Assembly: GCF_017310505.1 (NCBI RefSeq) | Contig: NZ_CP065957.1 | Location: forward strand, 558,001 to 622,000 | Direction: 5' to 3' | Origin: Methylacidiphilum caldifontis | GTDB taxonomy: Bacteria; Verrucomicrobiota; Verrucomicrobiia; Methylacidiphilales; Methylacidiphilaceae | DNA: 64,000 bases | Shown here: positions 14,460 to 30,825 of the stretch, piece after piece | Numbering within the stretch: the first letter of the stretch is position 1 | How the letters are laid out: every line of letters begins with the position of its first letter | Position numbers and translations under genes: made by a program | The notes under the pieces: model-generated | Told to the model about the DNA's origin: nothing | What the model saw: only the letters and a program-made list of their open reading frames with translations | Databases searched by the model: none

Positions 14460-17444
14460 ATGAACTTCTGGCAACAAAAACTGCTTGCTTTTTTACATGA
14501 CCCACCCTGTAAACCCTTTAATGTCGGGGAACATAGAGAAATTGCAGAAAGATGTATTATTGACGCTGGTTTTAATGAATTAGATCTTAAATTCAATTAT
14601 CATGTTTGTGATCATATCGCCGCTGCTGCTGATAGACTCATATTTCCTAAGCCTTTTATAGTTCATGCAGAATTTACAAGTACTCATGATTCTCCTTATC
14701 ATCATACCCTTGGGGGAGGAAAATTGCAGTTTTCTGAACCCATTAATAGTTCCGAAGCTGAAAATTTCGTTAAGCAACTTCAGCCGACCTATCTGACCTA
14801 TTACAACCTTGAAGCTATTGAAGACAAAACATTCGATGGGTTTGAAAGAAATGGAAAAGATTGGGCTAATTTCTTTTTGCATTGGCGATTATGGAAAAAA
14901 TTCGTATCAGAAAAAGATCCTAGGCTTGTCTTTTTGCCTGCGGACACTCGCATCCCAGATCATTCTATTTGGACTCATTGTGCCATTACAAGTGCTCTTC
15001 AAGGATGCGTTGAAGTTGAAGGTTACTCCATAAAATCTTTTGATCCCGCCTTTCTTCTTTTTCAAATCGGACCCGTCCAGGAATTCATTGCTCAAGCAAG
15101 AAAAACAAAAGATCTTTGGAGTGGAAGCTATCTTCTTTCCTGGCTAATCGCTCATGCAATAAAAGCTGTAACGGATAGAATAGGGCCAGATGCTATCATC
15201 TATCCTGCTCTTTTTAATCAACCTTTATTTGATTTTTTACACAAAGAAGAACTATATGAAAAAGTTAAGACTCCTGATAACAAAACTTTGTGGGACGAGG
15301 AATTTAGCTCTATTTCTCCCCAAGCAATCTTAACCCCAAACTTTCCTAACCGCTTTCTTGCCCTTATTCCATCCCCCAAAGCATTCGAGATAGCTAATGC
15401 TGCTGAAAATGCTCTCAAAGAAGAGTTAAGAAGGATTGCCGATAGCTGTAAATCATATCTTAAGGATGAGATTGGAATGGAATGGAATGAAAACATTCAA
15501 AAAAGATGGGAAGAACAAATTAGTTCTTTTATTCAGGTTTCATGGTTAGTATATCCCTGGGAAAAGGATATAGTAAAATCAATTGATTTGTTTAGCAAGC
15601 TACCTTTGCAACGATCTGTTGATCAAGAAACTTCTCCCGCAGACAACCTTAGAAAATTATATGATTATGCAAGAACGAGACCTAGAGAGGAACTAGATCC
15701 ACGTAACTTTAGACATATTGGAAATGAAATTGTCTATGATTCTCAAGGTCTTCCAATCATTGAAAATAGTGGTTTCTGTTGGTCAGCCTATTATGCAATA
15801 ACCGATTATCTTCATGCTGCTAGGAGAAACACAAGAGATTTTTCTTTCCTAGGATCACCTTCTGAATTTCAACTTAAGAAAGGAGTTCCAAAGGATACAT
15901 ATTCGGGCAAAGAAGAATCTATAGGTGGGGAAAAATGGCAAAAAATTTTAAAAAACAAACTACCTTACCTTTTCAAAGAAAACGAGCATCTAGGGGCTCT
16001 TAATCTCATAAAAAGGATCTGGGACAAAGCCTATTTAATCAATGTCCACAAACTTTTTCCCCAAGTCTTTGATTCTGTTCCAGATATAGCTGCACTCGAC
16101 TGGCTAAAAGAAAAAACAAATGAGTTAAAAAATAATACGACACATAAAGATTTCACAGTAGCTATAGAAAAAGCAATTGAAAATAAAGAGCTCAATTTGT
16201 CTAAAAAGGATATAAAAACTGACTTAGAAAAAGAAGGCGTTTTCTCTTCTTTTCCTTCTCTTTATTTTCAAACTGAAATTCAACAAATAAAAAAAGATAA
16301 AAATGAAACAACTAAATTCTCAAACTTAGAAAATGCATTAACATGCTTAAAAAAATTACAAAAAGGTGAAAAAATATCAAAACCCAATACCTATATTGCT
16401 ATTTTAGCAATGGATGGGGATTCGATGGGAGAATGGCTTAGCGGACAAAAAACCCCTGAAATAGGAGAATCTCTAGCTAAAAGCATAAAACTCTATTTTA
16501 CTGAAGATATTCTTAAAATTAGACGCCCACTATTCCCTAGTTTCCACCTTGAACTGAGCCAAGCATTAGCCAACTTTTCAATTTTTTTAGCTGCTCCAAT
16601 CGTTAAGCATTTTAATGGACAGTTAATTTATTCAGGTGGTGACGACGTTCTAGCCATGCTTCCTGCAGAAAAAGCTTTAATATGCGCATATGTCTTAAGA
16701 ATGGCTTTTAGAGCTGAAAAGATTTCTCGAACTGATCCAGATTTTGATCTAAACATGCCGCAATATTTTCCTGGAGTACTAGAAGATCAACAACAAGGTT
16801 TTGTTGGATTAAATGGAGAATGGGAAGGATGGAAAAGCTATGGGTTAATAAAAAGTATCCCTAGAGGATATCATCTCCTTCTTATGGGCGATAAAGCAGA
16901 CATCTCAGCAGGCATTGCTATTGGACATATTCATAGTCCACTACAAAATCTAGTCAATAGTGCTAGAGAAGCAGAAAAAAAAGCAAAATCAGCTGACTAC
17001 GGAAAAGCTTCCTTCGTAGTTAACCTTTTTAAACGTTCAGGAGAAATTCTTCAATGGGGTTCAAAATGGTCTTCTAATCAAACCAATACAAAGTGCTATC
17101 CCATAGAAATTATTGAAAAACTAAAGACTTTTTATAATGAAAATAAAATCTCAAGCAGGTTTCCTTATAGGCTTGCAGAACTCACACTACCTTATATATC
17201 CCATAAAGCTCATGATTCCATTGTAAAAGAAAACTTCGATGAGCTTAAGCCAATCATAGAAAAAGACTTCACTTTTGCTCTTTCTCAACATTTCGATACT
17301 AAAAACGACAATTCGATAGAAGAAGAAAAAGAAAAATTTGAACAAATTGGCAAAGAATACCTGGCCCAATCCAAAAAACTATTAGATTTTCTTGGTCCTT
17401 TTTTGACTTTTGCTTTCTTCAAAGAAAAAGGAGAGACAGGATGA
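14460..17444 (+). CDS. cas10: Type III-B CRISPR large subunit Cas10/Cmr2
   Basis: At 994 residues this is the signature subunit of the Cmr effector complex. The N-terminus carries the HD-like motif FLHDPPCKPF (His13-Asp14), with further His/Asp residues near 45-60. Two cyclase-like palm domains follow. The first has LAMDGDSMGEW (Asp652/Asp654); the second has the catalytic GGDD motif at 726-729 followed by VLAMLPA. An intact GGDD predicts synthesis of cyclic oligoadenylates from ATP when target RNA binds, which fits the two CARF genes downstream. The gene ends in a 4-nt ATGA overlap with cmr3, showing tight translational coupling. The HD site looks partly degenerate compared with the type III-A HD nuclease, as is common in Cmr2, so I cannot say whether it cuts DNA. 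Confidence 0.95.
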   Translation: MNFWQQKLLAFLHDPPCKPFNVGEHREIAERCIIDAGFNELDLKFNYHVCDHIAAAADRLIFPKPFIVHAEFTSTHDSPYHHTLGGGKLQFSEPINSSEAENFVKQLQPTYLTYYNLEAIEDKTFDGFERNGKDWANFFLHWRLWKKFVSEKDPRLVFLPADTRIPDHSIWTHCAITSALQGCVEVEGYSIKSFDPAFLLFQIGPVQEFIAQARKTKDLWSGSYLLSWLIAHAIKAVTDRIGPDAIIYPALFNQPLFDFLHKEELYEKVKTPDNKTLWDEEFSSISPQAILTPNFPNRFLALIPSPKAFEIANAAENALKEELRRIADSCKSYLKDEIGMEWNENIQKRWEEQISSFIQVSWLVYPWEKDIVKSIDLFSKLPLQRSVDQETSPADNLRKLYDYARTRPREELDPRNFRHIGNEIVYDSQGLPIIENSGFCWSAYYAITDYLHAARRNTRDFSFLGSPSEFQLKKGVPKDTYSGKEESIGGEKWQKILKNKLPYLFKENEHLGALNLIKRIWDKAYLINVHKLFPQVFDSVPDIAALDWLKEKTNELKNNTTHKDFTVAIEKAIENKELNLSKKDIKTDLEKEGVFSSFPSLYFQTEIQQIKKDKNETTKFSNLENALTCLKKLQKGEKISKPNTYIAILAMDGDSMGEWLSGQKTPEIGESLAKSIKLYFTEDILKIRRPLFPSFHLELSQALANFSIFLAAPIVKHFNGQLIYSGGDDVLAMLPAEKALICAYVLRMAFRAEKISRTDPDFDLNMPQYFPGVLEDQQQGFVGLNGEWEGWKSYGLIKSIPRGYHLLLMGDKADISAGIAIGHIHSPLQNLVNSAREAEKKAKSADYGKASFVVNLFKRSGEILQWGSKWSSNQTNTKCYPIEIIEKLKTFYNENKISSRFPYRLAELTLPYISHKAHDSIVKENFDELKPIIEKDFTFALSQHFDTKNDNSIEEEKEKFEQIGKEYLAQSKKLLDFLGPFLTFAFFKEKGETG

Positions 17445-18709
17445 TAACATTAGACCTTATTCCTTTTGATACACTATTTTTCCGAGATAGTCGACCCCTG
17501 GCTGCTGGTAGTAGTTTTGGGCATGGTGCAAACTGGCCACTTCCTTGTACAATACACGGTGCATTAAGAACAGCTCTCCTTTCTTTTGCCGGAGAATTAC
17601 CATCTGAGCCCAAAAATGGCTGTCAGCGAAAAGGAAAAGTAATGGGAGAAATAGGAACCGATGCATTTAATTGGCTTAATATCAAAGGCCCCTTTCCTGT
17701 AGATCTTAGAAATGAAGAAGTCTATTTTCCAAGACCATTGGATCTTTCTTTGGATTCTGATCTGAAAACTCTTAAGTCCTGCCGCCCATTAAAAATTTCA
17801 AATAATACTTATAAATCTAATCTTCCTTCTCCTATATGCTACCCCGTTGTTTCGTCTACTCCACCTACAAAGAAGGAAGCACCAAGATGGATTCCTTCTT
17901 CTCTTTTCGAAAGATATCTTAAGGAAGAAAGTTTTATCTATGATGTGGAAAAAGTTTTTTGGGACTCAGAATATAGAATTGGAATAGCTATTGACCCTGA
18001 AAGTCAAACTGTAGTAGAAAGTCAATTTTTTGCAGCAGAACATTTGCGACTAAGAGAAGATTTCGCCTTGCGTGTTTTAACTAACAGCCCTCCGGATCAT
18101 AAAAAACAGAATACAACTGAACAAAGCCTTACTCCTGAGAACCTGGATCAACTTACGATAACAGTTGGAGGAGAAAACAGGTTTTGCAAAGTAAAGAAAG
18201 CTTCTAAACAATTAGATTTTTCTAACAAGGATCATATCCAATCAACAAGGCTTAAATGGGTACTTCTTACTCCCGCTATTTTTCGCCAAGGCTTTTTGCC
18301 TGGCTGGATTAATGCGAACAGCACCGCTCAATGGAATGTTTGCCTTCGGCTAGTCGAGAAAGAGAGTCGTCGAGAGTTCCGAAGAAGGCGAAAAATAGAT
18401 CCTAATTGGAAATATGTTCCAGAAAATGACCCAGCTGAACAGATTATAGCACGGCTTGTAGCCGCTTTTATTGGCAAGCCTGTTGCTATCAATGGTTGGG
18501 AAATATTTTCAGGATCTGGTGGTGGACCTAAACCTACGCTTCTTGCTGTACCTGCTGGATCTGTCTTTTACTTTGAAACAGAAAGTGAAAACGAAACAAA
18601 AAAGTTAGCTGAAGCCCTCCATTTTCGATGCCGCTCTGACTTTTATGGAGAAAAAGGACTAGGACTTGGTCTTTGTGGAACTTGGTCTTATTCTGAACTC
18701 TTATTGTAG
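17441..18709 (+). CDS. cmr3: CRISPR type III-B protein Cmr3 (Cas5 group)
   Basis: This 422-residue protein starts MITLDLIPFDTLFFRDSRPL, a characteristic Cmr3 N-terminus, followed by FGHGANWPLPCTIHGALRTA. Near the C-terminus a glycine-rich segment (GSGGGPKPTLLAVPAGSVFYF) and GEKGLGLGLCGTW match the RAMP fold. Cmr3 pairs with Cas10 and binds the 5-prime handle of the crRNA, capping the foot of the complex. The ATG overlaps the cas10 stop by 4 nt. About 77 nt separate it from cmr4. Confidence 0.93.
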   Translation: MITLDLIPFDTLFFRDSRPLAAGSSFGHGANWPLPCTIHGALRTALLSFAGELPSEPKNGCQRKGKVMGEIGTDAFNWLNIKGPFPVDLRNEEVYFPRPLDLSLDSDLKTLKSCRPLKISNNTYKSNLPSPICYPVVSSTPPTKKEAPRWIPSSLFERYLKEESFIYDVEKVFWDSEYRIGIAIDPESQTVVESQFFAAEHLRLREDFALRVLTNSPPDHKKQNTTEQSLTPENLDQLTITVGGENRFCKVKKASKQLDFSNKDHIQSTRLKWVLLTPAIFRQGFLPGWINANSTAQWNVCLRLVEKESRREFRRRRKIDPNWKYVPENDPAEQIIARLVAAFIGKPVAINGWEIFSGSGGGPKPTLLAVPAGSVFYFETESENETKKLAEALHFRCRSDFYGEKGLGLGLCGTWSYSELLL

Positions 18710-18786
18710 GCTTGTCCATAGACGTCTTAGAGGATGAAAAAATATTTTAATTTCATTAAATTTTAAACGAAAAAGGAGAATAAAAA

Positions 18787-19725
18787 ATGACAGAATCCAT
18801 GCAAATCCTAAAACAAGGAAAACCTGCTTTAGCTTTTCTTTATCTTTTTACCCAAACTCCCCTGCATATTGGAGCAGGCAGTTCAGTGGGAGCAATAGAT
18901 CTCCCTATTATCAGAGAAAGACACACGGGATTTCCCATAATTCCGGGGAGTGCTATTAAGGGAGTTTTTCGTGATGAATGGGTTAAAAAAGATACTTTGG
19001 AAATTACCGATGAAGGGAAAAAACTTTTTGGTGTTGGATCAGATAGTGAGGCTCAAAGTGGATTAATTCAGTTTACTGAAGCTAAACTATTAGCATTTCC
19101 AATCCGATCTTTAAAAGGTTGTTTTGCTTGGATTACTAGTCCACTTATACTCAAACGTTATTTCAGAGACTTACATAAAAATGATTTTTCAATGCCTAAT
19201 TCTCTTATTGATAATAAAGCTTTATTCAAAAAAGATAACCCAATTTCTATAGAAGATCACTCAACTACTGCTAAGGTCATTTTAGAAGAGTATATTTTTG
19301 AGTATTTAGATGATCCTCCTGAAATTTTATATTCAATATTAACAGAAGAACTAACACACAAAAATGAAATCTTAAAAGAGATACCTAAAAGAATAGTAAT
19401 AGTAAGCGATGGAACAATGAGTTTTTTTACACAAACTGCTTGCCAGATTGCTCAACATGTAAAAATTGATGATAAAACAGGTACTGCTGAAGAAGGAGCT
19501 TTGTTTAATCAGGAGAATGTGCCTTCTGAAACTCTTTTTTATAGCGTTGTAAGAAGGAGTTCTATTAAAAACGACTCTTTTGATCCATTCGAGAAGTTAA
19601 CAAGTAAGATTAAAGAAAAAAACCATCTTTTCCAATTTGGAGCAGATGCAGGAACTGGTCTTGGATATTGTACAACATTCTTAAACTACAAGCTTCATAT
19701 TCAGCAAAGCGAAAACCAATTTTAA
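18787..19725 (+). CDS. cmr4: CRISPR type III-B backbone protein Cmr4 (Cas7 group)
   Basis: This 312-residue RAMP protein has the Cmr4 N-terminal signature TPLHIGAGSSVGAIDLPIIRE, then GFPIIPGSAIKGVFRDEW. Asp38 in GAIDLPI corresponds to the aspartate that cuts target RNA at 6-nt intervals in characterised Cmr4 proteins. A C-terminal glycine-rich segment (FGADAGTGLGYC) completes the fold. It should polymerise along the crRNA as the backbone. AAAGGAG lies just before the ATG as a good ribosome-binding site. Confidence 0.94.
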   Translation: MTESMQILKQGKPALAFLYLFTQTPLHIGAGSSVGAIDLPIIRERHTGFPIIPGSAIKGVFRDEWVKKDTLEITDEGKKLFGVGSDSEAQSGLIQFTEAKLLAFPIRSLKGCFAWITSPLILKRYFRDLHKNDFSMPNSLIDNKALFKKDNPISIEDHSTTAKVILEEYIFEYLDDPPEILYSILTEELTHKNEILKEIPKRIVIVSDGTMSFFTQTACQIAQHVKIDDKTGTAEEGALFNQENVPSETLFYSVVRRSSIKNDSFDPFEKLTSKIKEKNHLFQFGADAGTGLGYCTTFLNYKLHIQQSENQF

Positions 19726-19743
19726 ACTAAGCGAGGTAGTATT

Positions 19744-20103
19744 ATGAGCACAATGACAAACTTAGATATACTCAGAGCTAAACATGCATTAAATAGAGCA
19801 AATAATTTAGATAAAAAAAATGTTAATAAAATACCAGGACTAATAATGTCCAATGGATTATTATCTACTCTTGCTTATATTATTGACAAAAAAAGTGATT
19901 CTGAAACTTCCAAAGCCATGGAGGCTGTAATTGATTATTTAAAAGAAAGAAATGTGATATCCAAAAACACAGTTACCGGTGCTCTCCAGGAATTAACCAA
20001 CGGCGATTCCATTAAATTACAACGAGCTACTTTTGAAGCATTACAATATCTTTCTTATCTAAAAAGATTTTCTGAAAAAAAGGAAATTCAAAAAAATACT
20101 TAA
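19744..20103 (+). CDS. cmr5: CRISPR type III-B small subunit Cmr5 (Cas11 group)
   Basis: This 119-residue, mostly helical and lysine-rich protein sits between cmr4 and cmr6, as Cmr5 does. N-terminal RAKHALNRANNL and C-terminal FEALQYLSYLKRFSEKKEI fit the small-subunit family, which lines the minor filament of the complex. It begins 18 nt after cmr4 behind GCGAGGTAG and is followed by cmr6 after only 3 nt. Confidence 0.88.
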   Translation: MSTMTNLDILRAKHALNRANNLDKKNVNKIPGLIMSNGLLSTLAYIIDKKSDSETSKAMEAVIDYLKERNVISKNTVTGALQELTNGDSIKLQRATFEALQYLSYLKRFSEKKEIQKNT

Positions 20104-20106
20104 TCA

Positions 20107-21009
20107 ATGAATAATTATATTGCTATTAAACCAATCAAAGAATTAATAAAAAAAAATAATCCTGATTCACTTGCTCTTTGTTTAGTAAAATACGTAGATC
20201 CTAGGAAAAATAATGGATTTAATGCAAAAGAATATTACTTCAATCATTTAAAAACTATAAAGCTAAATCTAAAAAGAATCGACACTTGGTGGAATTTTAT
20301 ACATTCCATTCCAAAAAATCGAATATTTTATTTTCAACTACAATCTCAAAAACTGCTGATCAATACAGCCGCAGTAATCACGGGAAAATTTGGAGTATGT
20401 ATTGATTATTACGGAATCCCTTATATACCTGGAAGTGCTGTTAAAGGTTGCGCTCGAAGCGTAGCAATCAAAGAGTTGCGAAATGCTTCAGAGGCCAATA
20501 AGGCTGAGTTGTTATCTACCATTGCACTGGTTTTTGGATGGTCAGAAGCAGACTGGACAAAAAATGAAACTCTTTCTGATTTTTATTGGGGATGTAACAA
20601 AAATGATGAAATTTTAAGTGATGCTGCCTCATTAATAATGGAAAAGATAATTGGAAAGCACAACAAACAACTTATTCAAGAAATTCCAAACTTTGCAGGC
20701 ACAGTTTCTTTTTTGGATGCTTATCCAATACCTCTAAAATTTTATCCTTCAAATTACAATACCTATAACTCTTATCATCATCGTGATTTTCCTCAATATC
20801 CTCATCCTGTAACACGCAACCATATCTTCAGTTTTTGTCTGATTCCTTCTCCAAAACGAATTTTGGTAGATGCCCTTACTAAGAGTATTGGTTGGCTCAA
20901 AAAAGGACTAGAAGATCATGCAATAGGCGCAAAGAAAAAAAATGGTTATGGAAAATTTATAGACTGTACCGAAAAAGTTAAAAGAATGATTAATAAAACA
21001 ACTAGATAA
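20107..21009 (+). CDS. cmr6: CRISPR type III-B protein Cmr6 (Cas7 group)
   Basis: This 300-residue RAMP protein has a central signature YYGIPYIPGSAVKGCARSVA (about 101-120). A conserved block near 205-250 reads GTVSFLDAYPIPL. A C-terminal Lys-Gly loop (GLEDHAIGAKKKNGYGKF) matches Cmr6 families. It should cap the head of the Cmr filament. It is the last subunit gene; no cmr1-like RAMP gene is present anywhere in the window. Confidence 0.9.
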   Translation: MNNYIAIKPIKELIKKNNPDSLALCLVKYVDPRKNNGFNAKEYYFNHLKTIKLNLKRIDTWWNFIHSIPKNRIFYFQLQSQKLLINTAAVITGKFGVCIDYYGIPYIPGSAVKGCARSVAIKELRNASEANKAELLSTIALVFGWSEADWTKNETLSDFYWGCNKNDEILSDAASLIMEKIIGKHNKQLIQEIPNFAGTVSFLDAYPIPLKFYPSNYNTYNSYHHRDFPQYPHPVTRNHIFSFCLIPSPKRILVDALTKSIGWLKKGLEDHAIGAKKKNGYGKFIDCTEKVKRMINKTTR

Positions 21010-21266
21010 TAAAAAAAACAAGAAAAAAGAAACATAAAAAAATAAGTCAAATAGTGAGTTACTAGATACATGTAAACTGAATGAAGTGCATTTTAGAACT
21101 CTACAATTAAATCAAATGATTAATAGGATTTGATTTTCAAATTCGAATTCTTACTTGAACATGGAAAAATTATTTATTCAAGTACCGACGACAATAATAT
21201 TCTTTTCAGTGGTTTATGAGAATTTTTATCTTCGAATATTTCCTTACCTGATGAATAAGAAAAGCT
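21010..21266. promoter_or_regulatory. AT-rich gap between Cmr subunit genes and the CARF effector genes
   Basis: About 257 nt of very AT-rich sequence with no open frame of note. It is the longest gap in the cas locus apart from the leader, so the accessory CARF genes may have their own promoter here. No clear consensus boxes were identified. Confidence 0.35.
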
Positions 21267-22358
21267 ATGAATCAAAAAAAAGAAACTATTTTATTAGCTG
21301 TTGTAGGTACATCTCCTGCAGTTATTCCTGAGACTATCTGGGGGCTTATCCATGAGTCTCCTCCTCTCTGTCCTCGTTTCATTGATGTCATTACAACAAC
21401 TGCTGGTAAAAGATCAATAGAATCCGAACTGTTAAATCCAGGAAAAAATTCCTTATCTATCTGGGATGAATTTAGACAAGGGTTAATCGATAAAAAAAAG
21501 ATAAGTCCTGATTCAGTTATCCTTAGAGAGATCAAAGTTATTCCCTCTCCTCTTAAAGAGCAAGGTAAGTGTGTGGAGTTGGAAGATATTCGCACAGCCA
21601 AAGAAAATGAAGATGCAGCAGATTACATTCTTGAAGAAGTAAGGAAAATTACAGAAAACCCTGACACTCTTCTCATTGCTTCAGTAGCTGGAGGAAGAAA
21701 AACAATGAGCATCCTACTCTCCATTTCCATTTCCATGCTTGGTAGAGAGGGAGATAGACTTACTCATGTACTAGTCAATGAACCCTATGATGATCCACGG
21801 CTTCAACCCAAATTTTACTATCCAACACAAAAAGAACAGCTTCTAAAGACAATATCGAGCAGTGTAGTACATGCTAAAGATGCCAAAATTGAGTTAGCAA
21901 ACATCCCCTTTGTTAGATTTAGAGAGCTTTTCCCAAAAGAGCTAGGAAGATTCCCAGGTCGATTCACAAATCTGGTCCATGAATTTTCCAATGAAATTAA
22001 AAAGTTAAATCCTAAGCTCGATTTCGATCCTCAATCTGGAAAAATCATAATCAACGACCAGGAAATCGCGCTAAAAGGTAGAGAACTGGCATTTTTTGCT
22101 TTTCTCTGGGATAGGAAAAAGAAAAATCTTCCACCCCTAGAAACTCATAATGATGTTGATAATCTCTTTCCTAGCTTTTTTGAGCAATGGAAAAAGGAAA
22201 ATACTCAATTAAGCGCTTCAATAAAAGATTGGGATCTCGACATTGAAGATTATAGAAAATGTTTGAGTAACTTAAGAAAAAAATTAAAAGTTAACGGTTT
22301 AGGAAAATACAGTGAACTATTTTTCCCAACAAGAGGAAAAGTTGGTCTTCCTTCCTAA
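21267..22358 (+). CDS. CARF-domain protein of the NE0113/Csm6-like family with winged-helix C-terminus
   Basis: At 363 residues it starts with a CARF-type Rossmann domain: ILLAVVGTSPAVIPETIWGL at 8-27 and the ligand-loop motif SVAGGRKTMS (139-148), followed by HVLVNEPYDDP. These match the family usually labelled CRISPR-associated NE0113 or ring-nuclease Csm6. Residues about 255-363 (IALKGRELAFFAFLW, then CLSNLRKKLK) read like a winged helix rather than a HEPN RNase. No RxxxxH HEPN motif stands out in this region. It is therefore best seen as a cOA sensor that regulates the locus or degrades the cOA signal. The position after cmr6 and before a second CARF gene supports a role in cOA signalling. 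Confidence 0.82.
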   Translation: MNQKKETILLAVVGTSPAVIPETIWGLIHESPPLCPRFIDVITTTAGKRSIESELLNPGKNSLSIWDEFRQGLIDKKKISPDSVILREIKVIPSPLKEQGKCVELEDIRTAKENEDAADYILEEVRKITENPDTLLIASVAGGRKTMSILLSISISMLGREGDRLTHVLVNEPYDDPRLQPKFYYPTQKEQLLKTISSSVVHAKDAKIELANIPFVRFRELFPKELGRFPGRFTNLVHEFSNEIKKLNPKLDFDPQSGKIIINDQEIALKGRELAFFAFLWDRKKKNLPPLETHNDVDNLFPSFFEQWKKENTQLSASIKDWDLDIEDYRKCLSNLRKKLKVNGLGKYSELFFPTRGKVGLPS

Positions 22359-22461
22359 CACATTCGATCTGCATCCATTATATCAAGGAAAAGCTCTTAG
22401 ATGGTAAAGAGAAAGACCGAGGAGCCAAAAATAATTTTTTATAAACAAAGGAGTAATTATA

Positions 22462-24363
22462 ATGCAAAGAAATGGTAATGATTATGATAGGCCAAATATT
22501 ACTTCTTTGTCACAGAAAAATATTCTTCTATGCACCTTAGGAGAATCTTGGATCATTCTTATAGAAGCTGCAGATTATAAGCATCTTGATGAAATTCATT
22601 GTTTAACAGGCATTTCAGCAAAAGTTGAATCCAATTTTGAAAAACTTTTTTCTTCTTTTGAAAAAAGGAACTGCACTTTTGGCATATGGCAATTGAAAGG
22701 ATTCAATGAAGCCGAAACTCAAGAACAGGTAGAAAACTTCAATGAAACGCTTTTTAGGTGGTATCTGTACCATTTACAAAAAAATAATCAGTTGCCATAT
22801 GCCTGTATTGCTGGTGGATACAAATCGATGGCAGCTGTTCTCCATAAAGCCGCTTATAGCTTTGGATCAAAAGGAATATTCCATATTCTAGTCAGTGGAG
22901 ATCCTCCTAAAGATGAAGAAAATTATAATATAGCTAAGCTTGAAAAAAGAATTTTCTATGTTGATCTCGGAGAAGAACAAGGATTTGACGCTTTACATGA
23001 ATTAAAATCGGGTGATTTTCCCTTAGAATGTTCACAAATAAGAAAATACAAGAATATTCATCATTATCTAATCGATATTCCTTCAAAGAAAAACTTATGG
23101 GAGGTATGTAAAAACACATTAAAAAATATTTCTAGAAAGGCTAAGGCCTGGGATAAGAAAGAGAGTCTTCCTTTTTCTATTCTTGCTGTTGCTCCTGACA
23201 GCTTTATAGATTGGCTTAACAAAAATGTTGACCCACAGGAAGACAAAAATTGGATCAAGCAACTCCCAAAGATCGAATTGCACTGCCATTTAGGCGGTTT
23301 TGCAACTCATGGTCGAGCATTAGAAGAAGTTAGAAAAAAAGCAAAAACACAACAAAGTAACTTCCCCCCTCCCCCTCCCTTGCCTGAGGGATGGCCAGAA
23401 CCCAAAAAAGAGATAGGTCTTGAAGCCTATATGAAGTTAGGCAATGCAACAGGATCTAATCTTCTTAAAGACCAGGGTTGCTTAGAAAAACATTGTCAAC
23501 TTCTTTATGAAGCATTGTGCGACGACAACGTTGTTTATGCTGAAATACGCTGTTCACCAAATAACTATGCAACTCCTCAGGATGGTCGATCAGCTTGGGT
23601 TGTGTTAGAAGAAATCAGAAATTATTTTCAACAAGCAATGGATAAGAAGAAAAGAGAAAATTTTGAAGCTTTTTGCCACGTCAACCTCGTCATTATTGCT
23701 GACCGTAAAAGCGCTGATCTTTCCTCCTTAAGTCGCCATCTTTCTTTAGCTATCACTGCAAATCAGCATTTTCTAGTACAATGGGAAAGTTGTGCTATCG
23801 TAGGAGTGGATTTAGCTGGTTTTGAATCAAGGGAGACGAGGGCTGAACTTTTTTCTTATGACTTTACTCCAATTCATCGATGTGGAATAGCAGTTACGGC
23901 TCATGCTGGAGAAAATGATGATGCTGAAGGCATATGGCAGGCTATATTTAAGCTGCATGCCAGAAGATTAGGCCATGCTTTAAGTTTAAAAAATTCAAAA
24001 GATCTTTTAAGAACCGTAGTGGATAGAAAAATTGCTATAGAGTTATGTCCTTATGCAAACTATCAAATTAAGGGATTTTATCCAATGCAAGGAAAAGAAG
24101 AATATCCTTTTTATGATTATCATAAAAAGGGAATTGTTGTTACGGTTAATACAGATAACATAGGTATAAGTAAAGCCAGCCTTTCAGATAATTTTCTTTT
24201 TCTTTCAACCAAACTTTGTCCTCAACTTACGAAAATGGATATTTTGAGGATCATCTCTAATTCAATTAGGGCTGCCTTTCTTCCTTACAAGGGTCAAATG
24301 GAGCTTCAGAAGAAAGTTGAAGATAAATTGAGCAAACTCATTCAGCAATATGTCCAGGTTTGA
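22462..24363 (+). CDS. CARF-adenosine deaminase fusion, Cad1-like type III CRISPR effector
   Basis: This 633-residue fusion has an N-terminal CARF domain (about 20-160): NILLCTLGESW, then CIAGGYKSMAAV with GGYKSM at 118-123. A linker (about 165-265) leads to a C-terminal metal-dependent adenosine deaminase domain (268-630). Deaminase motifs are ELHCHLGG (His274, His276), TAHAGEN (His481, Glu484), RLGHAL (His505) and VNTDN (Asp565). All expected zinc ligands and the catalytic Glu are present. The residue after Asp565 is Asn, where classical deaminases have a second Asp that contacts substrate. Family knowledge: CARF-deaminase fusions in type III loci (Cad1) bind cyclic oligoadenylate and convert ATP to ITP, stopping phage growth. 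The same activity is inferred here. A GGAG site (AAAGGAGTAATTATA) precedes the ATG. Confidence 0.9.
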   Translation: MQRNGNDYDRPNITSLSQKNILLCTLGESWIILIEAADYKHLDEIHCLTGISAKVESNFEKLFSSFEKRNCTFGIWQLKGFNEAETQEQVENFNETLFRWYLYHLQKNNQLPYACIAGGYKSMAAVLHKAAYSFGSKGIFHILVSGDPPKDEENYNIAKLEKRIFYVDLGEEQGFDALHELKSGDFPLECSQIRKYKNIHHYLIDIPSKKNLWEVCKNTLKNISRKAKAWDKKESLPFSILAVAPDSFIDWLNKNVDPQEDKNWIKQLPKIELHCHLGGFATHGRALEEVRKKAKTQQSNFPPPPPLPEGWPEPKKEIGLEAYMKLGNATGSNLLKDQGCLEKHCQLLYEALCDDNVVYAEIRCSPNNYATPQDGRSAWVVLEEIRNYFQQAMDKKKRENFEAFCHVNLVIIADRKSADLSSLSRHLSLAITANQHFLVQWESCAIVGVDLAGFESRETRAELFSYDFTPIHRCGIAVTAHAGENDDAEGIWQAIFKLHARRLGHALSLKNSKDLLRTVVDRKIAIELCPYANYQIKGFYPMQGKEEYPFYDYHKKGIVVTVNTDNIGISKASLSDNFLFLSTKLCPQLTKMDILRIISNSIRAAFLPYKGQMELQKKVEDKLSKLIQQYVQV

Positions 24364-24432
24364 CGTCATGTCATGTCTAAACACTTGAGATAAAAAAACT
24401 CTTTTTTATGTTTTGAGGAAAAAAGAAGAAGT

Positions 24433-25440
24433 ATGCCTTCTGCTTATTTAATTCAGTCTTATACTAAAATCTCACTCTATTCAGAAAGACTCCAAGTCGT
24501 TGGATTAAATGAAGAAAGTGGTTCAGAAGAAGTTATTAGAGAAATTCCTTTAAGAGAACTCGAAAGAGTTGTATTGGATCAAACTGTTTCTATTACTACT
24601 CCAGCTCTCTGTGAATTGATGAACCGGAACATTCCCATTTCTTTTTTGGGTTTTAATGGACAAATTATAGGAGGATTTCTTCCTCCCTTAAATTCACATG
24701 GCCTGTGGAGACAAAAGCAATATCAGAATAGCTTAGATCCCAAATCTGTTCTTACATTCTCAAGTAAGCTCATTAGGGGAAAAATTTATAATCAAAGGCG
24801 TTCTCTTCAAAGGCTAAGCTTAAACAGAAATATCAATATAGAAAAAGATCTCCAATGGCTAAATCAAATTCTCTTCAATGTTGCTTCAGCTTCCACTGTT
24901 GACGAAGTTCGAGGATACGAAGGAGCCACTACAGCCCGTTATTTTCAAACTTGGTCTACCTTTTTACCAAAAGAATTTCCTTTTGAGCGCAGATCCACTC
25001 GTCCTCCACTCAATCCTGTAAATGCTTGTATATCATTTGGTGCAACCCTTCTTTACAATGAAATGACGGCTCTTATTCATCTCCATGGACTTGATCCCGC
25101 ATTAGGTTTTTTACATGCTCCAGAAAATGAAAGATGGTCTCTTGCTTTAGATCTCATTGAACCCTTCAGACCCGTAATTGTAGAAGCATTAACACTAGAT
25201 CTTTTTAGCCACAAGATTCTTAATCATGAGCATTTTGAAAAGAAAAACGGGGGTTGTTATTTAAACGAATCAGGAAGAAGAAAATTTCTTGCTCAATATG
25301 AAACTAGATTAGAAAGACAATTTCTTTCTGAATTTGCCAGTTGTAGAACGACCCTAAGAGTGCAATTAGAATCTTGCGCCTGTTCATTCAAAGCGGCTTT
25401 AGAGGATCCAGAAAAATTTGAACCTTTCTTAATGAATTAA
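24433..25440 (+). CDS. cas1: CRISPR integrase Cas1
   Basis: This 335-residue Cas1 has the catalytic triad in place: Glu163 in RGYEGATTARYF, His228 in LGFLHAPENE, and the acidic pair Asp240/Glu243 in LDLIEPFRPVI. With Cas2 it integrates new spacers at the leader end of the array. The protein is a plain Cas1: there is no reverse transcriptase or Cas6 domain fused to it. An AGGAAAAAAGAAGA stretch precedes the ATG. cas2 follows 2 nt after the stop codon. Confidence 0.95.
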   Translation: MPSAYLIQSYTKISLYSERLQVVGLNEESGSEEVIREIPLRELERVVLDQTVSITTPALCELMNRNIPISFLGFNGQIIGGFLPPLNSHGLWRQKQYQNSLDPKSVLTFSSKLIRGKIYNQRRSLQRLSLNRNINIEKDLQWLNQILFNVASASTVDEVRGYEGATTARYFQTWSTFLPKEFPFERRSTRPPLNPVNACISFGATLLYNEMTALIHLHGLDPALGFLHAPENERWSLALDLIEPFRPVIVEALTLDLFSHKILNHEHFEKKNGGCYLNESGRRKFLAQYETRLERQFLSEFASCRTTLRVQLESCACSFKAALEDPEKFEPFLMN

Positions 25441-25442
25441 CC

Positions 25443-25829
25443 ATGAGCAGAAATGATGAATACACAGAAAATCAATCTGAAGAACCATCTTATTGGTGGT
25501 ATGAAGCTTTTACCCCTTTACCCAGCAGAAAAAAACCACCAGGAGAGAAAAAAATGCTCACTGTTATTGCATATGACATTTGTGATGACAAGAGATTACA
25601 TAAAATAGCAAAAATTTGTGAAGATTATGGTGTAAGGGTTCAGTTTAGTGTTTTTGAGTGTTATTTAGAAGAATCAGAATTGGAAGGGCTTTGGAAAAAA
25701 TTACTTTCAGAAATCAATCCAAAAGAAGATAGAATTGTTGCCTATAAAATTGATTCTAGATTAGCGAAAGAAATTAAAACAGCAGGTACAATGGTTTGTT
25801 CAGAGAAAGTACTCTGCTTTTTGGTATAA
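25443..25829 (+). CDS. cas2: CRISPR adaptation protein Cas2
   Basis: The open frame gives 128 residues, but Cas2 homology (LTVIAYDICDDKRLHKIAKICEDYG) begins at the in-frame ATG 25554. That start has AGGAGA at 25541-25546, seven bases upstream, and gives the normal Cas2 length of about 91 residues. The 25443 start lies right after the cas1 stop and has no ribosome-binding site. Either the 37 extra residues are an unusual extension reached by coupling, or the true start is 25554, which I favour. Asp in the YDI motif is the conserved acidic residue at the dimer interface. It works with Cas1 in spacer integration. Confidence 0.9.
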   Translation: MSRNDEYTENQSEEPSYWWYEAFTPLPSRKKPPGEKKMLTVIAYDICDDKRLHKIAKICEDYGVRVQFSVFECYLEESELEGLWKKLLSEINPKEDRIVAYKIDSRLAKEIKTAGTMVCSEKVLCFLV

Positions 25830-26110
25830 TGTATAATATTTGAAAATTTTACGGTTTTTTATTATAAAATGATAACTTGAAAATTTTATGACGGTAGTTT
25901 TGTTTTAAAAATTTCTAATTTAGGTATTGACTACAAATAATATAAAAAAAGATATCCCAATACCCATTATTATCATGCTGGTTATGAATAAGTTATTATT
26001 ATCAATTGCAATTCTAAAAAATTTAAAGCAAATAGAATGCCAATCTAAAAATACAGTCAATACCTTAATATATATTTCTATTTTGATATTCAAAGACTTA
26101 GAAATTCGCA
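25830..26110 (+). promoter_or_regulatory. CRISPR leader
   Basis: 281 very AT-rich bases lie between cas2 and the first repeat, the expected place for the leader that drives array transcription and marks the site of spacer insertion. TATAAT-like hexamers overlap the end of cas2, and a TTGACT lies near 25927. I cannot decide on one promoter. The small frame at 25927-26115 is low-complexity and not a credible gene. Leader polarity agrees with the degenerate repeats being at the far end of the array. Confidence 0.7.
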
Positions 26111-29100
26111 GTTAGAACTAGAGATGAAGCCGAAAGGCAATTGAGACGAGATATCCGATTACCTGAATAATGTTAACGGGTCAATCGTTAGAACTAGAGA
26201 TGAAGCCGAAAGGCAATTGAGACTTACTAGCTTAGCTACCTGATACGACCTAGCAGCCTTTGTTAGAACTAGAGATGAAGCCGAAAGGCAATTGAGACCT
26301 TTTCGGCCTCTTGGATGGCATTTTTTAAGGTCTCGTTAGAACTAGAGATGAAGCCGAAAGGCAATTGAGACTCATAATTGGCTCCCTTCCTTGCTATGTT
26401 GAAAATTAACGTTAGAACTAGAGATGAAGCCGAAAGGCAATTGAGACGTCATTCTTATCACTTTCCCTTTCGCAGGAAAGCCCATTTGTTAGAACTAGAG
26501 ATGAAGCCGAAAGGCAATTGAGACCTCAAGACCGTTGATGGCAATGATTTTATTATATTCTGTTAGAACTAGAGATGAAGCCGAAAGGCAATTGAGACTG
26601 GTTCCCAATAATATATATAAAATGATATTGGCCTTTCGTTAGAACTAGAGATGAAGCCGAAAGGCAATTGAGACCCTTGTTTGTTGTTCCACAAGTATTC
26701 TTTCATTTTATTACCGTTAGAACTAGAGATGAAGCCGAAAGGCAATTGAGACAGTCTCCCAGCCTTGATAACCAGAGATTGGGCGGACTCGTTAGAACTA
26801 GAGATGAAGCCGAAAGGCAATTGAGACAAATCTCGCATTTAACTTTCATTTATATTATTCCCCAGTTAGAACTAGAGATGAAGCCGAAAGGCAATTGAGA
26901 CTCAGCCATCCAATTACCTCTTCCTTTTTCATTTCTTTTTGTGTTAGAACTAGAGATGAAGCCGAAAGGCAATTGAGACATAAAAGCTGATATAGTTTTT
27001 CTTCATTCATTTCTTTCCGTTAGAACTAGAGATGAAGCCGAAAGGCAATTGAGACTTGAGATTTAATAATTTTCCAGAGTTCAGGAACTGATGTTAGAAC
27101 TAGAGATGAAGCCGAAAGGCAATTGAGACGGATTTGTCTTTTTAACTTTCTCCAGAAGTTTCTTGGAGTTAGAACTAGAGATGAAGCCGAAAGGCAATTG
27201 AGACGAATTAATTCAATTACTTGACCTGGATGAGCTGCTGCTCGTTAGAACTAGAGATGAAGCCGAAAGGCAATTGAGACGAGCTTCCGTGGGCTGATGG
27301 CGGGAAAACCACAACGCAGTTAGAACTAGAGATGAAGCCGAAAGGCAATTGAGACGCGCAAACTTTTTCAAAGAACTTTTCTGGCTCCTGAGGTTAGAAC
27401 TAGAGATGAAGCCGAAAGGCAATTGAGACTTCAGAGGAATAAACTCTCCCCGGAAAATATTTTTCAGTTAGAACTAGAGATGAAGCCGAAAGGCAATTGA
27501 GACGCGTCCTTCATTATCGACAATGAGCTTACTAAAATTAGTTAGAACTAGAGATGAAGCCGAAAGGCAATTGAGACCTTCCCCTCATAATTCCATCCAG
27601 CCCAAGGATGGAACGTTAGAACTAGAGATGAAGCCGAAAGGCAATTGAGACTCCAACACGGAAAGATATAATCCGGCTCGTCTTTATTGGTTAGAACTAG
27701 AGATGAAGCCGAAAGGCAATTGAGACGGGTACTGCTGAATCATTACCACTAGAGATTGATGTTGTTAGAACTAGAGATGAAGCCGAAAGGCAATTGAGAC
27801 ACATATACAATTCCCAATCTTCCCTTACTTTTTGGGAAAGTTAGAACTAGAGATGAAGCCGAAAGGCAATTGAGACTCCATTATGTATTCTCCCCCCGGA
27901 AAGTATTCATTAAGTTAGAACTAGAGATGAAGCCGAAAGGCAATTGAGACGGTTTTTTGAGGACTCGCCCGAGCCCTCATTTTACGTGTTAGAACTAGAG
28001 ATGAAGCCGAAAGGCAATTGAGACGCTGGCTCATGCTTGTTGAGCCAGACAAGCTCTTTTACTGTTAGAACTAGAGATGAAGCCGAAAGGCAATTGAGAC
28101 AACTTCCTTCCCCGTTACGGGGAAGAAAATAAACACTTGTTAGAACTAGAGATGAAGCCGAAAGGCAATTGAGACCCCCTCAACCCAGATTGGTTCTGAG
28201 TTGAGGGGAATGATAGTTAGAACTAGAGATGAAGCCGAAAGGCAATTGAGACATTTCCTATGATCTATAAGCCGATCTTGGTAATCAAAAGTTAGAACTA
28301 GAGATGAAGCCGAAAGGCAATTGAGACGGGAAATATTTATTAAGATCTTCCTCAACCTGATCGAGGAAGTTAGAACTAGAGATGAAGCCGAAAGGCAATT
28401 GAGACTTCCTCGACCTTATCAAGGAATTGAGCCACATCAGGGAAGTTAGAACTAGAGATGAAGCCGAAAGGCAATTGAGACGCTCCCAGTTGGCCAACTG
28501 GAAGCACAATTCCTTCTACCGGTTAGAACTAGAGATGAAGCCGAAAGGCAATTGAGACAGCCTTCTAAATAATACTCCTCCGCTATGGAGGAGAGATGTT
28601 AGAACTAGAGATGAAGCCGAAAGGCAATTGAGACCAGCCAATATCTCCAATTTACCTCGATCTCATACGGTAGTTAGAACTAGAGATGAAGCCGAAAGGC
28701 AATTGAGACAAAGAACACACCTCTGGTACCATGGTAGATGTGAATGTTACGTTAGAACTAGAGATGAAGCCGAAAGGCAATTGAGACGAGGGTGAGGGTT
28801 AGGATTGGGGTTCCCACCTACCTTCGTTAGAACTAGAGATGAAGCCGAAAGGCAATTGAGACCGTCTTCTTTTGCAAGTGAAGGTAAGCGGTGTGTTCTG
28901 TTAGAACTAGAGATGAAGCCGAAAGGCAATTGAGACAGCAACCCGAACCGGGCCACTCCCCCGACGGAGGATGATGCAGCGTTAGAACTAGAGATGAAGC
29001 CGAAAGGCAATTGAGACATAATCTTTCGGCCAATGCTTTTCTACATAAGCTTTTGTTAGAACTAGAGATGAAGCCGAAAGGCAATTGAGACACCCGTTTT

Positions 29101-30825
29101 GAAACAGCCATTCCTTAGATCTTATATGGGGTTAGAACTAGAGATGAAGCCGAAAGGCAATTGAGACGGGGAAACAAAGTGCCCGTAATCTTTCACCGGG
29201 AAAACGTTAGAACTAGAGATGAAGCCGAAAGGCAATTGAGACTTTGCCATCGTAGTTCCAACCAGCCCAAGGGTGGAACTTGTTAGAACTAGAGATGAAG
29301 CCGAAAGGCAATTGAGACGAAATTTCGAACAGCAATCTCCCGACTTTTCTTTTGGGAGTTAGAACTAGAGATGAAGCCGAAAGGCAATTGAGACCATCAA
29401 CCAATTCCTTGGAAGCTAACTCACTCAAGTCAGTTAGAACTAGAGATGAAGCCGAAAGGCAATTGAGACTCCATTTACAGTCTATGTATTCTGGCTCATT
29501 GTAATTGTTAGAACTAGAGATGAAGCCGAAAGGCAATTGAGACTTATGAGGTTAAAATGAAACCCGATAAGTCATATACATGTTAGAACTAGAGATGAAG
29601 CCGAAAGGCAATTGAGACCACTTTTCTCTACACTAATTACATACTCCTCACAACGTTAGAACTAGAGATGAAGCCGAAAGGCAATTGAGACGAAATTTCG
29701 AACAGCAATCTCCCGACTTTTCTTTTGGGAGTTAGAACTAGAGATGAAGCCGAAAGGCAATTGAGACAGCCCCCCTTTGTAAACATAGAGCCGCTCATTA
29801 TAAATAGTTAGAACTAGAGATGAAGCCGAAAGGCAATTGAGACCCCACAAGATTGTCGCGTTAAAAGGAATGACTGCTCCCAGTTAGAACTAGAGATGAA
29901 GCCGAAAGGCAATTGAGACAAAACCACTTCTACCATAGCTTCAAGATGATCTGGAGGTTAGAACTAGAGATGAAGCCGAAAGGCAATTGAGACCATCAAC
30001 CAATTCCTTGGAAGCTAACTCACTCAAGTCAGTTAGAACTAGAGATGAAGCCGAAAGGCAATTGAGACTCCATTTACAGTCTATGTATTCTGGCTCATTG
30101 TAATTGTTAGAACTAGAGATGAAGCCGAAAGGCAATTGAGACTCCTGGTTGAGGTTTTTTGAAGGCTCTACCCGAGCCCTGTTAGAACTAGAGATAAAGC
30201 CGAAAGGCAATTGAGACTTTATTTTCTATTTACGAGGATTCACCCGAATCCTCATCGTTAGAACTAGAGATGAAGCCGAAAGGCAATTGAGACTTCTAGC
30301 TCTTTCCTTGTTTTTTCTTTCATTGTTTTGCTCGTTAGAACTAGAGATGAAGCCGAAAGACAATTGAGACCCAGACCAGTTCTTTGGTTATATCCTCAAG
30401 GGGAAAGTTGTTAGAACTAGAGATGAAGCCGAAAGGCAATTGAGACGACTTTTCTCACTCTTATAATGTCTCCTTTATTCAAGGGTTAGAACTAGAGATG
30501 AAGCCGAAAGGCAATTGAGACAAACAGGCTTGTGGAAATATCTCCAATCAATGTGTCTAGTTAGAACTAGAGATGAAGCCGAAAGGCAATTGAGACTCAT
30601 CTTCCTCTACAAAAGTCCAATACCCTGAATCCCAAGTTAGAACTAGAGATGAAGCCGAAAGGCAATTGAGACGAACGAGAAACATTCCATGCTTCCCAGA
30701 CATGGTATTCCGTTAGAACTAGAGATGAAGCCGAAAGGCAATTGAGACGGGAAGTGCGGAAGATTTAGATTGATCTCTTTATCCTGATGTTAGAACTAGA
30801 GATGAAGCCGAAAGGCAATTGAGAC
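26111..30825 (+). CRISPR. CRISPR array, 63 repeats of 37 bp and 62 spacers
   Basis: I counted 63 copies of a 37-bp repeat that starts GTTAGAACTAG and ends ATTGAGAC, separated by spacers of 36-44 nt. The repeat contains GCC-GAAA-GGC, a 3-bp stem with a GNRA-type tetraloop, one base before the last eight bases. Those eight would be the 5-prime handle of crRNAs (AUUGAGAC), close to the handle known in type III systems, so transcription is rightward from the cas2 side. Two repeats near the right end each carry one G-to-A change (in the copies starting at 30181 and 30334), as expected at the old, leader-distal end. Three spacers occur twice, and a striking share form stem-loops. No cas6 gene is present to process it, so a trans-acting Cas6 or host RNase is needed. 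Confidence 0.99.
29319..30105 (+). repeat. Duplicated spacers within the CRISPR array
   Basis: Three spacers occur twice with identical sequence: 29319-29357 equals 29692-29730; 29395-29432 equals 29994-30031; and 29470-29506 equals 30069-30105. The order is A-B-C-D-E-A-F-G-H-B-C. Independent acquisition of three identical spacers is unlikely, so a segmental duplication through recombination between repeats, followed by partial loss, is the simpler reading. Confidence 0.95.

Follow-up and report, generated by a model that had tools for sequence, protein, structure and literature searches.

A type III-B CRISPR adaptation module of Verrucomicrobiota that probably favours hairpin-forming DNA

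The stretch analysed here, referred to as the window, comprises 64,000 nucleotides of Methylacidiphilum caldifontis (contig NZ_CP065957.1, positions 558,001 to 622,000), whose genome is a single contig of 2,254,698 bases. Its + strand carries a type III-B CRISPR (clustered regularly interspaced short palindromic repeats)-Cas operon at 14460-25829, with the array lying 3′ of the operon at 26111-30825 (Table 1). The Cas10/Cmr2 large subunit is present, as are Cmr3, Cmr4 and Cmr5, whose TIGR01888, TIGR02580 and TIGR01881 matches each exceed the cut-off, and the locus has its own Cas1-Cas2 adjoining an active-looking array. We place the leader between cas2 and the first repeat because both mismatch-bearing repeats sit at the far end of the array. 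A second system in the genome, of type I-D, has its own Cas1, Cas4 and array. The spacers of the III-B array hold far more perfect stem-loops than chance would provide, and the excess recurs in Verrucomicrobiota arrays served by the same adaptation module, which lacks a reverse transcriptase (RT) and which probably captures hairpin-forming DNA by preference.

Table 1. Genes, array and hairpin-bearing spacers of the III-B locus, in window coordinates
Feature	Coordinates	Strand	Matches or description
cmr2/cas10 (type III-B effector)	14460..17444	+	PF12469, PF22335, TIGR02577 (254.9 bits; cut-off 79.4)
cmr3	17441..18709	+	PF09700, TIGR01888
cmr4	18787..19725	+	TIGR02580 (203.9 bits)
cmr5	19744..20103	+	PF09701, TIGR01881
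cmr6-like RAMP protein	20107..21009	+	TIGR01898 (47.8 bits, slightly under the cut-off of 51.1)
CARF protein, PADLOC class CARF5/CARF_TM (NCBIfam name: ring nuclease NE0113)	21267..22358	+	TIGR02584, PDLC01909
CARF-adenosine deaminase, Cad1-like effector	22462..24363	+	PF00962, PDLC01908 CARF_ADA (542 bits)
cas1	24433..25440	+	PF01867 (277.9 bits), TIGR00287; without RT or Cas4 fusion; marker of the clade sharing the hairpin excess
cas2	25443..25829	+	TIGR01573 (60.5 bits)
presumed leader	25830..26110	+	cas2 to first repeat; presumed from position
CRISPR array	26111..30825	+	63 repeats GTTAGAACTAGAGATGAAGCCGAAAGGCAATTGAGAC, 62 spacers, 59 unique
spacer 20	27578..27614	+	8-bp stem (27591/27606), 1 nt from 3′ end; reverse complement FHPWAGWNYEGK
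spacer 23	27801..27839	+	7-bp stem (27811/27832), 1 nt from 3′ end
spacer 25	27951..27987	+	imperfect stem GAGGACTCGCCCGAGCCCTC
spacer 26	28025..28063	+	8-bp stem (28026/28041), 1 nt from 5′ end
spacer 27	28101..28138	+	internal 8-bp stem (28107/28119), 3-nt loop
spacer 28	28176..28215	+	9-bp stem (28176/28200), flush with 5′ end
spacer 30	28328..28368	+	6-bp stem, flush with 3′ end; reverse complement FLDQVEEDLNKYF
spacer 31	28406..28444	+	site homologous to that of spacer 30 (FLDKVEE), hairpin at other spacer end
spacer 32	28482..28521	+	16-nt palindrome CCAGTTGGCCAACTGG (28486-28501)
spacer 33	28559..28597	+	7-bp stem (28575/28587)
spacer 42	29243..29281	+	7-bp stem (29254-29260/29274-29280); coding site of spacer 20 (KFHPWAGWNYDGK), offset ~2 nt
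spacer 55	30218..30256	+	8-bp stem (30234/30246), 4-nt loop

If loops shorter than 3 nt are disallowed, a perfect stem of at least 7 bp occurs in 8 of the 59 unique spacers, against a mean of 1.43 in dinucleotide shuffles, and a stem of at least 8 bp in 5 of 59, against 0.32; none of 200 shuffles reached either count. The 38-mers from the rest of the window, the 64 kb of which are the sole host background used here, agree with the shuffles (1.45 and 0.42 expected, respectively). A preliminary description of this DNA had listed eight stems and put the random expectation at about one such spacer. All eight lie where it placed them, and its expectation is that of the shuffles, although three sites needed revision or qualification: the stem at 28107/28119 has 8 bp and a 3-nt loop rather than 7 bp; the 16-nt palindrome at 28486-28501 exists and pairs 8+8 without a loop, raising the count at 7 bp or more to 9/59 if it is included, but its stem shrinks to 6 bp once a 3-nt loop is required; and the site at 29255, listed as near-perfect, is a perfect 7-bp stem in spacer 42. 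Set against the natural excess of other arrays described below (1.7-fold at 7 bp or more, 2.8-fold at 8 bp or more), this array alone still stands out (P ~0.004 and ~0.003). Most of its hairpins fall in spacers 20-33, where 8 of 14 spacers have a stem of at least 6 bp, compared with 4 of 45 elsewhere (permutation P 0.009). Further along, at 29319-30105, spacers 43, 44 and 45 recur as 48, 52 and 53, array segments having been duplicated or rearranged internally.

We defined a clade of arrays by the shared adaptation module, that is, an RT-free Cas1/Cas2 lying beside Cmr genes wherever this was checked, with repeats of the GCCGAAAGGC type; effector genes typed in three further loci (L120, L116 and L125) were III-B in all. 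An alignment of seven Cas1 proteins was scanned against bacterial and archaeal genomes and arrays were called by our own script; the discovery pool leaves out arrays with partly recovered repeats, and the counts take spacers as independent. Over all 47 Verrucomicrobiota arrays (945 spacers), 78 stems of at least 7 bp were found where 18.7 were expected (confidence interval (CI) of the ratio, 3.1-5.1), and 41 of at least 8 bp where 4.8 were expected (CI 5.2-12.7), so that the excess seen in the window recurs among its relatives. In the first set of 774 spacers perfect stems were enriched 4.6-fold at 7 bp or more (68 vs 15), with 36 against ~3.5-3.9 at 8 bp or more and 17 against 0.8 at 9 bp or more; held-out arrays, retrieved with a different query, gave the excess again (10 vs 3.1 and 5 vs 0.65 at the two lower thresholds). 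Of the 32 clade arrays that hold 10 or more spacers, 24 show the excess, and they come from a wide variety of hosts and habitats. Among the orthologous arrays of the family, two of the Methylacidimicrobium type are enriched (5/29 and 4/27) and four are not (0/14, 1/29, 0/20 and 1/23); the type I arrays of the same hosts are not enriched. Spacers with a hairpin are slightly longer than the others (39.1 vs 38.5).

As controls we took arrays beside Cas1 proteins outside the clade; most were Verrucomicrobiota arrays retrieved with type I-D Cas1 (33-34 nt spacers, repeats ending ATTGAAAC), with type I-G outgroups in addition. This pool has 36 stems of at least 7 bp against a shuffle expectation of 20.9 (ratio 1.7, CI 1.2-2.3), and at 8 bp or more the CI of its ratio is 1.3-4.9; long stems exceed shuffles in the type I control arrays L213-L252 too (8 vs 2.2 at 8 bp or more). 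Invader DNA is naturally richer in perfect hairpins than dinucleotide shuffles, and shuffles alone are too weak a null; because they understate the natural hairpin frequency, the fair comparison is that of clade with control arrays. Here, the bootstrap CIs over arrays are disjoint at 7 bp or more, and the two pools differ with P 8e-6 at that threshold and 3e-4 at 8 bp or more. The contrast is conservative, since the pool, built as type I, includes outgroup arrays of which at least one (L146) is type III-A. That array, from a Chloroflexota metagenome-assembled genome (L146:11660-20176), has a hairpin excess of its own (6/95 vs 1.8), with every one of the six stems lying within 0-3 nt of the 3′ end, so the rule may extend beyond Verrucomicrobiota III-B; a survey for type III-A gave a Csm1 match in just one Verrucomicrobiota genome. 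Hosts that possess both systems provide the cleanest control: a hairpin is present in 15 of 112 III-B spacers (2.8 expected) but in only 3 of 229 from type I (shuffle expectation 2.2). Because these figures come from the same hosts, the excess tracks the adaptation module and not the host, which supports the suggestion in the preliminary description of a possible preference for hairpin DNA in the adaptation machinery. The two systems may meet different viruses, but some feature of the viral pool would, on its own, hardly account for this within-host contrast.

The stems are also positioned nonrandomly within the spacer. Among the strongest stems of the clade, 37 of 68 lie 0-1 nt from a spacer end, whereas 17.9 would be expected from hairpin size and spacer length (P<1e-5), and the register persists when the three largest arrays are removed (17 vs 9.9, P 0.008). 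It is absent in type I arrays (11/23 vs 8.5) and in outgroup arrays (4/13 vs 5.0). Both ends carry flush stems (5′, 22; 3′, 15), and the loops are mostly 3-8 nt long, most commonly 4 nt. This register suggests that the hairpin foot is where one end of the captured fragment forms.

Searches for the sources of the spacers were uniformly negative. The window spacers yielded no protospacer in INPHARED phages or PLSDB plasmids (spacers 1-36 in the plasmid query), nor in the host genome and its relatives, a comparison by which host self-targeting was rejected. Sixty hairpin spacers compared with 388 Verrucomicrobiota genomes returned array copies and low-complexity matches only, spacers of other arrays gave no protospacer in phages, and eight scans of IMG/VR for recurrent sites by degenerate or exact patterns gave none there. 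Two contigs picked up by pattern (L170 and L273) were set aside as chance matches, the L170 site lying in a different small zinc-finger protein beside an SSB-like gene. Since no protospacer was found, we judged whether the hairpins are natural from spacers that overlap or cover homologous sites. An overlapping partner spacer within the array is 4 times more frequent for hairpin spacers (10/68) than for the rest (28/706; P 0.0009); several hairpins fall within sequence that can be read as coding, and individual arrays hold repeated hits on homologous sites. On the target strand, spacers 20 and 42 read FHPWAGWNYEGK and KFHPWAGWNYDGK, with both arms in the conserved part and in near-identical register; spacers 30 and 31 share FLD(Q/K)VEE. 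In L116 (11634-16613), about 9 of 61 spacers, read as reverse complements, fall on diverged versions of one gene, within a stretch of about 50 codons, and flanking spacers cover both sides of one hairpin. Homologous hairpin sites in diverged sequences, such as those of spacers 20 and 42, indicate that the hairpins were present in the invader and, together with the partner overlap, argue that they are natural and mark capture hot spots rather than having been made by snap-back synthesis.

Three recurrent sites deserve a separate description. The ~50-codon stretch of the L116 invader gene has the joined reading KSLAMKSAKDYIGETSRFYASGLLSVIRQVGNHLPEIEDEAMRLVSSRGFH, and no relative of the gene was found in PHROGs, phage records or IMG/VR. 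In L120, four spacers (14873, 15108, 19044 and 20273) lie on one gene site (AQTMCPECW, zinc-ribbon-like) in differing versions. The neighbouring spacers L125:11745 and 11818 have 22 nt in common, beyond which they differ, the break lying close to the border of a 12-13-bp inverted repeat; this pair, which stays odd, may reflect a palindrome dispersed in the invader or, alternatively, fold-back synthesis that left its trace.

Confident calls of coding orientation are antisense for 120 of 180 clade spacers, compared with 92 of 187 for type I-C; such a bias is expected, because type III-B must recognise messenger RNA. Could the folded molecule itself have been RNA? Structured RNA or decay products might be turned into DNA and captured, the RNA hairpin shielding the ends. 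The antisense bias would fit, as would the general principle that hairpins protect RNA ends and the slightly greater frequency of stems with a G.U pair on the target strand than on the CRISPR RNA (crRNA) strand. The bias is just as strong in non-hairpin spacers, however, and can be produced by selection, and both spacer ends are used. As the preliminary description stated, Cas1 has no RT (its matches span ~335 aa without an RT match), and a PF00078 search of the whole genome, in which positive controls were detected, found none either, so RT-mediated RNA capture was rejected as first choice. Had RNA been captured, stems containing a single G.U pair should also show an enrichment close to that of perfect stems (4.6-fold); where a perfect 7-bp stem is lacking, spacers show just a 1.8-fold enrichment of such stems for the target strand and 1.3-fold for the crRNA strand. 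Folding energies computed with DNA parameters set spacers apart from shuffles a little more clearly than those computed with RNA parameters (z -0.54 vs -0.46). These three lines, the failure to detect an RT, weak G.U enrichment and the energies, favour DNA as the folded molecule, and we consider an RNA source very unlikely. Little speaks for selection after capture, by which self-complementary crRNAs or hairpin targets would work better and be kept: the antisense bias suggests that selection does act, but we found no direct support for this form of it, a folded target or guide should impede pairing, and neither flush ends nor the symmetry of the two ends would have a reason. We hold this explanation to be extremely improbable.

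Unbiased sampling could suffice to give hairpin spacers if the hosts' viruses were unusually full of palindromes or terminators, and part of the signal is indeed natural, given the 1.7-fold excess in type I arrays; the bunching of the window's hairpin spacers in one stretch likewise looks as if many of them came from one invader. Yet such bunching, seen in the window array, is not general along arrays (23 adjacent pairs against 26.3 expected), and temporal clustering was rejected as a clade rule. The near-absence of hairpin spacers from the type I arrays of hosts with both systems and the spread of the excess over many hosts and habitats also stand against this explanation, and target composition cannot account for flush ends. 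A T-run follows the stem in 1 of 78 hairpin spacers, and intrinsic terminators were rejected as the capture source; the alternative raised in the preliminary description, an element full of palindromes such as terminators, is thus mostly unsupported, with several hairpins in coding sequence and little excess in the type I arrays of these hosts and this phylum. We judge target bias unlikely. The stems could instead have arisen after capture or in the array, by snap-back priming of a 3′ end or by template-switch correction of quasi-palindromes during array replication. Snap-back would fit the flush ends and the perfection of the stems, the hairpin fraction rises slightly with spacer age (0.06 in the newest fifth vs 0.11 in the oldest), and the divergence of the L125 pair at an inverted-repeat edge would be in keeping. 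Against this, both arms lie in conserved coding sequence in the protein-readable cases (spacers 20/42; L120 15650/16507; and L116 13936/14622, whose flanks are covered by 13861 and 14927), and correction in the array would not yield flush ends, which leaves a post-capture origin quite unlikely.

We consider it probable that the RT-free III-B adaptation module preferentially captures natural hairpin-forming DNA, with ends set at the stem base. In the scheme that we propose, invader DNA would fold into a short-loop hairpin, as a single strand or as a cruciform extruded under supercoiling, and the hairpin would mark or protect the fragment. An exonuclease trimming the single-stranded flanks could halt at the stem base; alternatively, a structure-specific nuclease, possibly Cas1 itself, could cut there. 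Cas1-Cas2 would then integrate this fragment, ~38 nt long and bearing the hairpin at one of its ends, and spacers effective against viral messenger RNA, that is, antisense ones, would be kept. The folding and hairpin-capture part of this mechanism is well supported; the rest, namely that the folded molecule would be DNA and single-stranded, which enzyme sets the end and whether Cas1-Cas2 itself recognises the hairpin, we infer. A stronger version, which we find doubtful though conceivable, has the Cas1-Cas2 of the clade itself act as a structure-specific enzyme: it would recognise hairpins or cruciforms and cut at the stem base, the resulting end replacing the protospacer-adjacent motif (PAM) in defining the spacer boundary; if true, this would amount to a structural, PAM-like rule of spacer choice.

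Several observations weigh against preferential hairpin capture. Hairpin spacers are missing altogether from eight of the 32 larger clade arrays (10 spacers or more), and >80% of spacers lack a strong stem, so that hairpins would be a preferred substrate and not the sole one. The flush register in the held-out set goes in the same direction (8/24 vs 5.4) but, in this small set, is not significant. The evidence for DNA over RNA is moderate. Finally, with no protospacer found, the hairpins were not observed in their source, and we infer the source strand and the trimming.

The remainder of the operon has features of its own. None of the scanned operon proteins is a separate Cmr1, which the related locus L120 does carry; with no recognised separate cmr1 and a Cmr6-like protein just under the cut-off, 14460-21009 may encode a reduced III-B effector. 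A CARF-adenosine deaminase also accompanies III-B in L120 and L125 and may be a stable partner of the clade. In L125 (5926-8583, Roseibacillus ishigakijimensis), residues 496-598 of the adenosine deaminase frame match a REP-associated tyrosine transposase, so that either the effector gene has taken up an insertion or the frame is a merged one.

How type III systems choose spacers without a PAM or an RT is an open question, for which the clade offers a strong natural record, with hundreds of spacers, several hosts and an internal type I control; the frequent coincidence of spacer end and stem base is a new clue. A literature search, over a collection from which most subscription papers were missing, turned up nothing about hairpin spacers of Verrucomicrobiota. 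The type III loci of Methylacidiphilum Kam1 and SolV (PMC6688271) have Cas1 proteins 90% and 83% identical to the one studied here and the same repeat family; the relevant passages of that paper give loci with 17-23 spacers and do not discuss hairpins, and these two arrays alone are too small to reveal the effect (0/14 and 1/29 at 7 bp or more). RT-Cas1 systems (e.g. PMC11014452) also serve type III adaptation but acquire from RNA, whereas Cas1 here has no RT domain and none was detected in the genome. The Staphylococcus epidermidis III-A system is RT-free like ours and, according to the passages on it in a review (Aviram et al. 2022, via PMC9048733), acquires independently of a PAM with enrichment at ribosomal RNA and transfer RNA genes; its acquisition is tied there to transcription level and free DNA ends, and those passages do not show hairpins as the captured unit. 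Closest is the Streptococcus thermophilus III-A system, likewise with an RT-free type III Cas1-Cas2 that prefers stem-loop-rich DNA: as summarised in the same review's passages (Zhang et al. 2021, via PMC9048733), its preferred acquisition sites are DNA secondary structures located on displaced coding strands, and they include single-strand origins, oriT, riboswitch attenuators, and ribosomal RNA and transfer RNA genes. The review lists as open whether type III Cas1-Cas2 itself or other elements recognise the secondary structure. In S. thermophilus, newly acquired spacers of a laboratory strain were mapped, whereas here a III-B module has left natural arrays across a phylum, the hairpins often lie in ordinary coding sequence, and the spacer end keeps register with the stem base, a feature that the review's account of S. 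thermophilus, in those passages, does not mention. What was known, then, is a III-A preference in the laboratory; what is added is its III-B counterpart, a clade-wide natural archive, hairpins in coding sequence and the end register.

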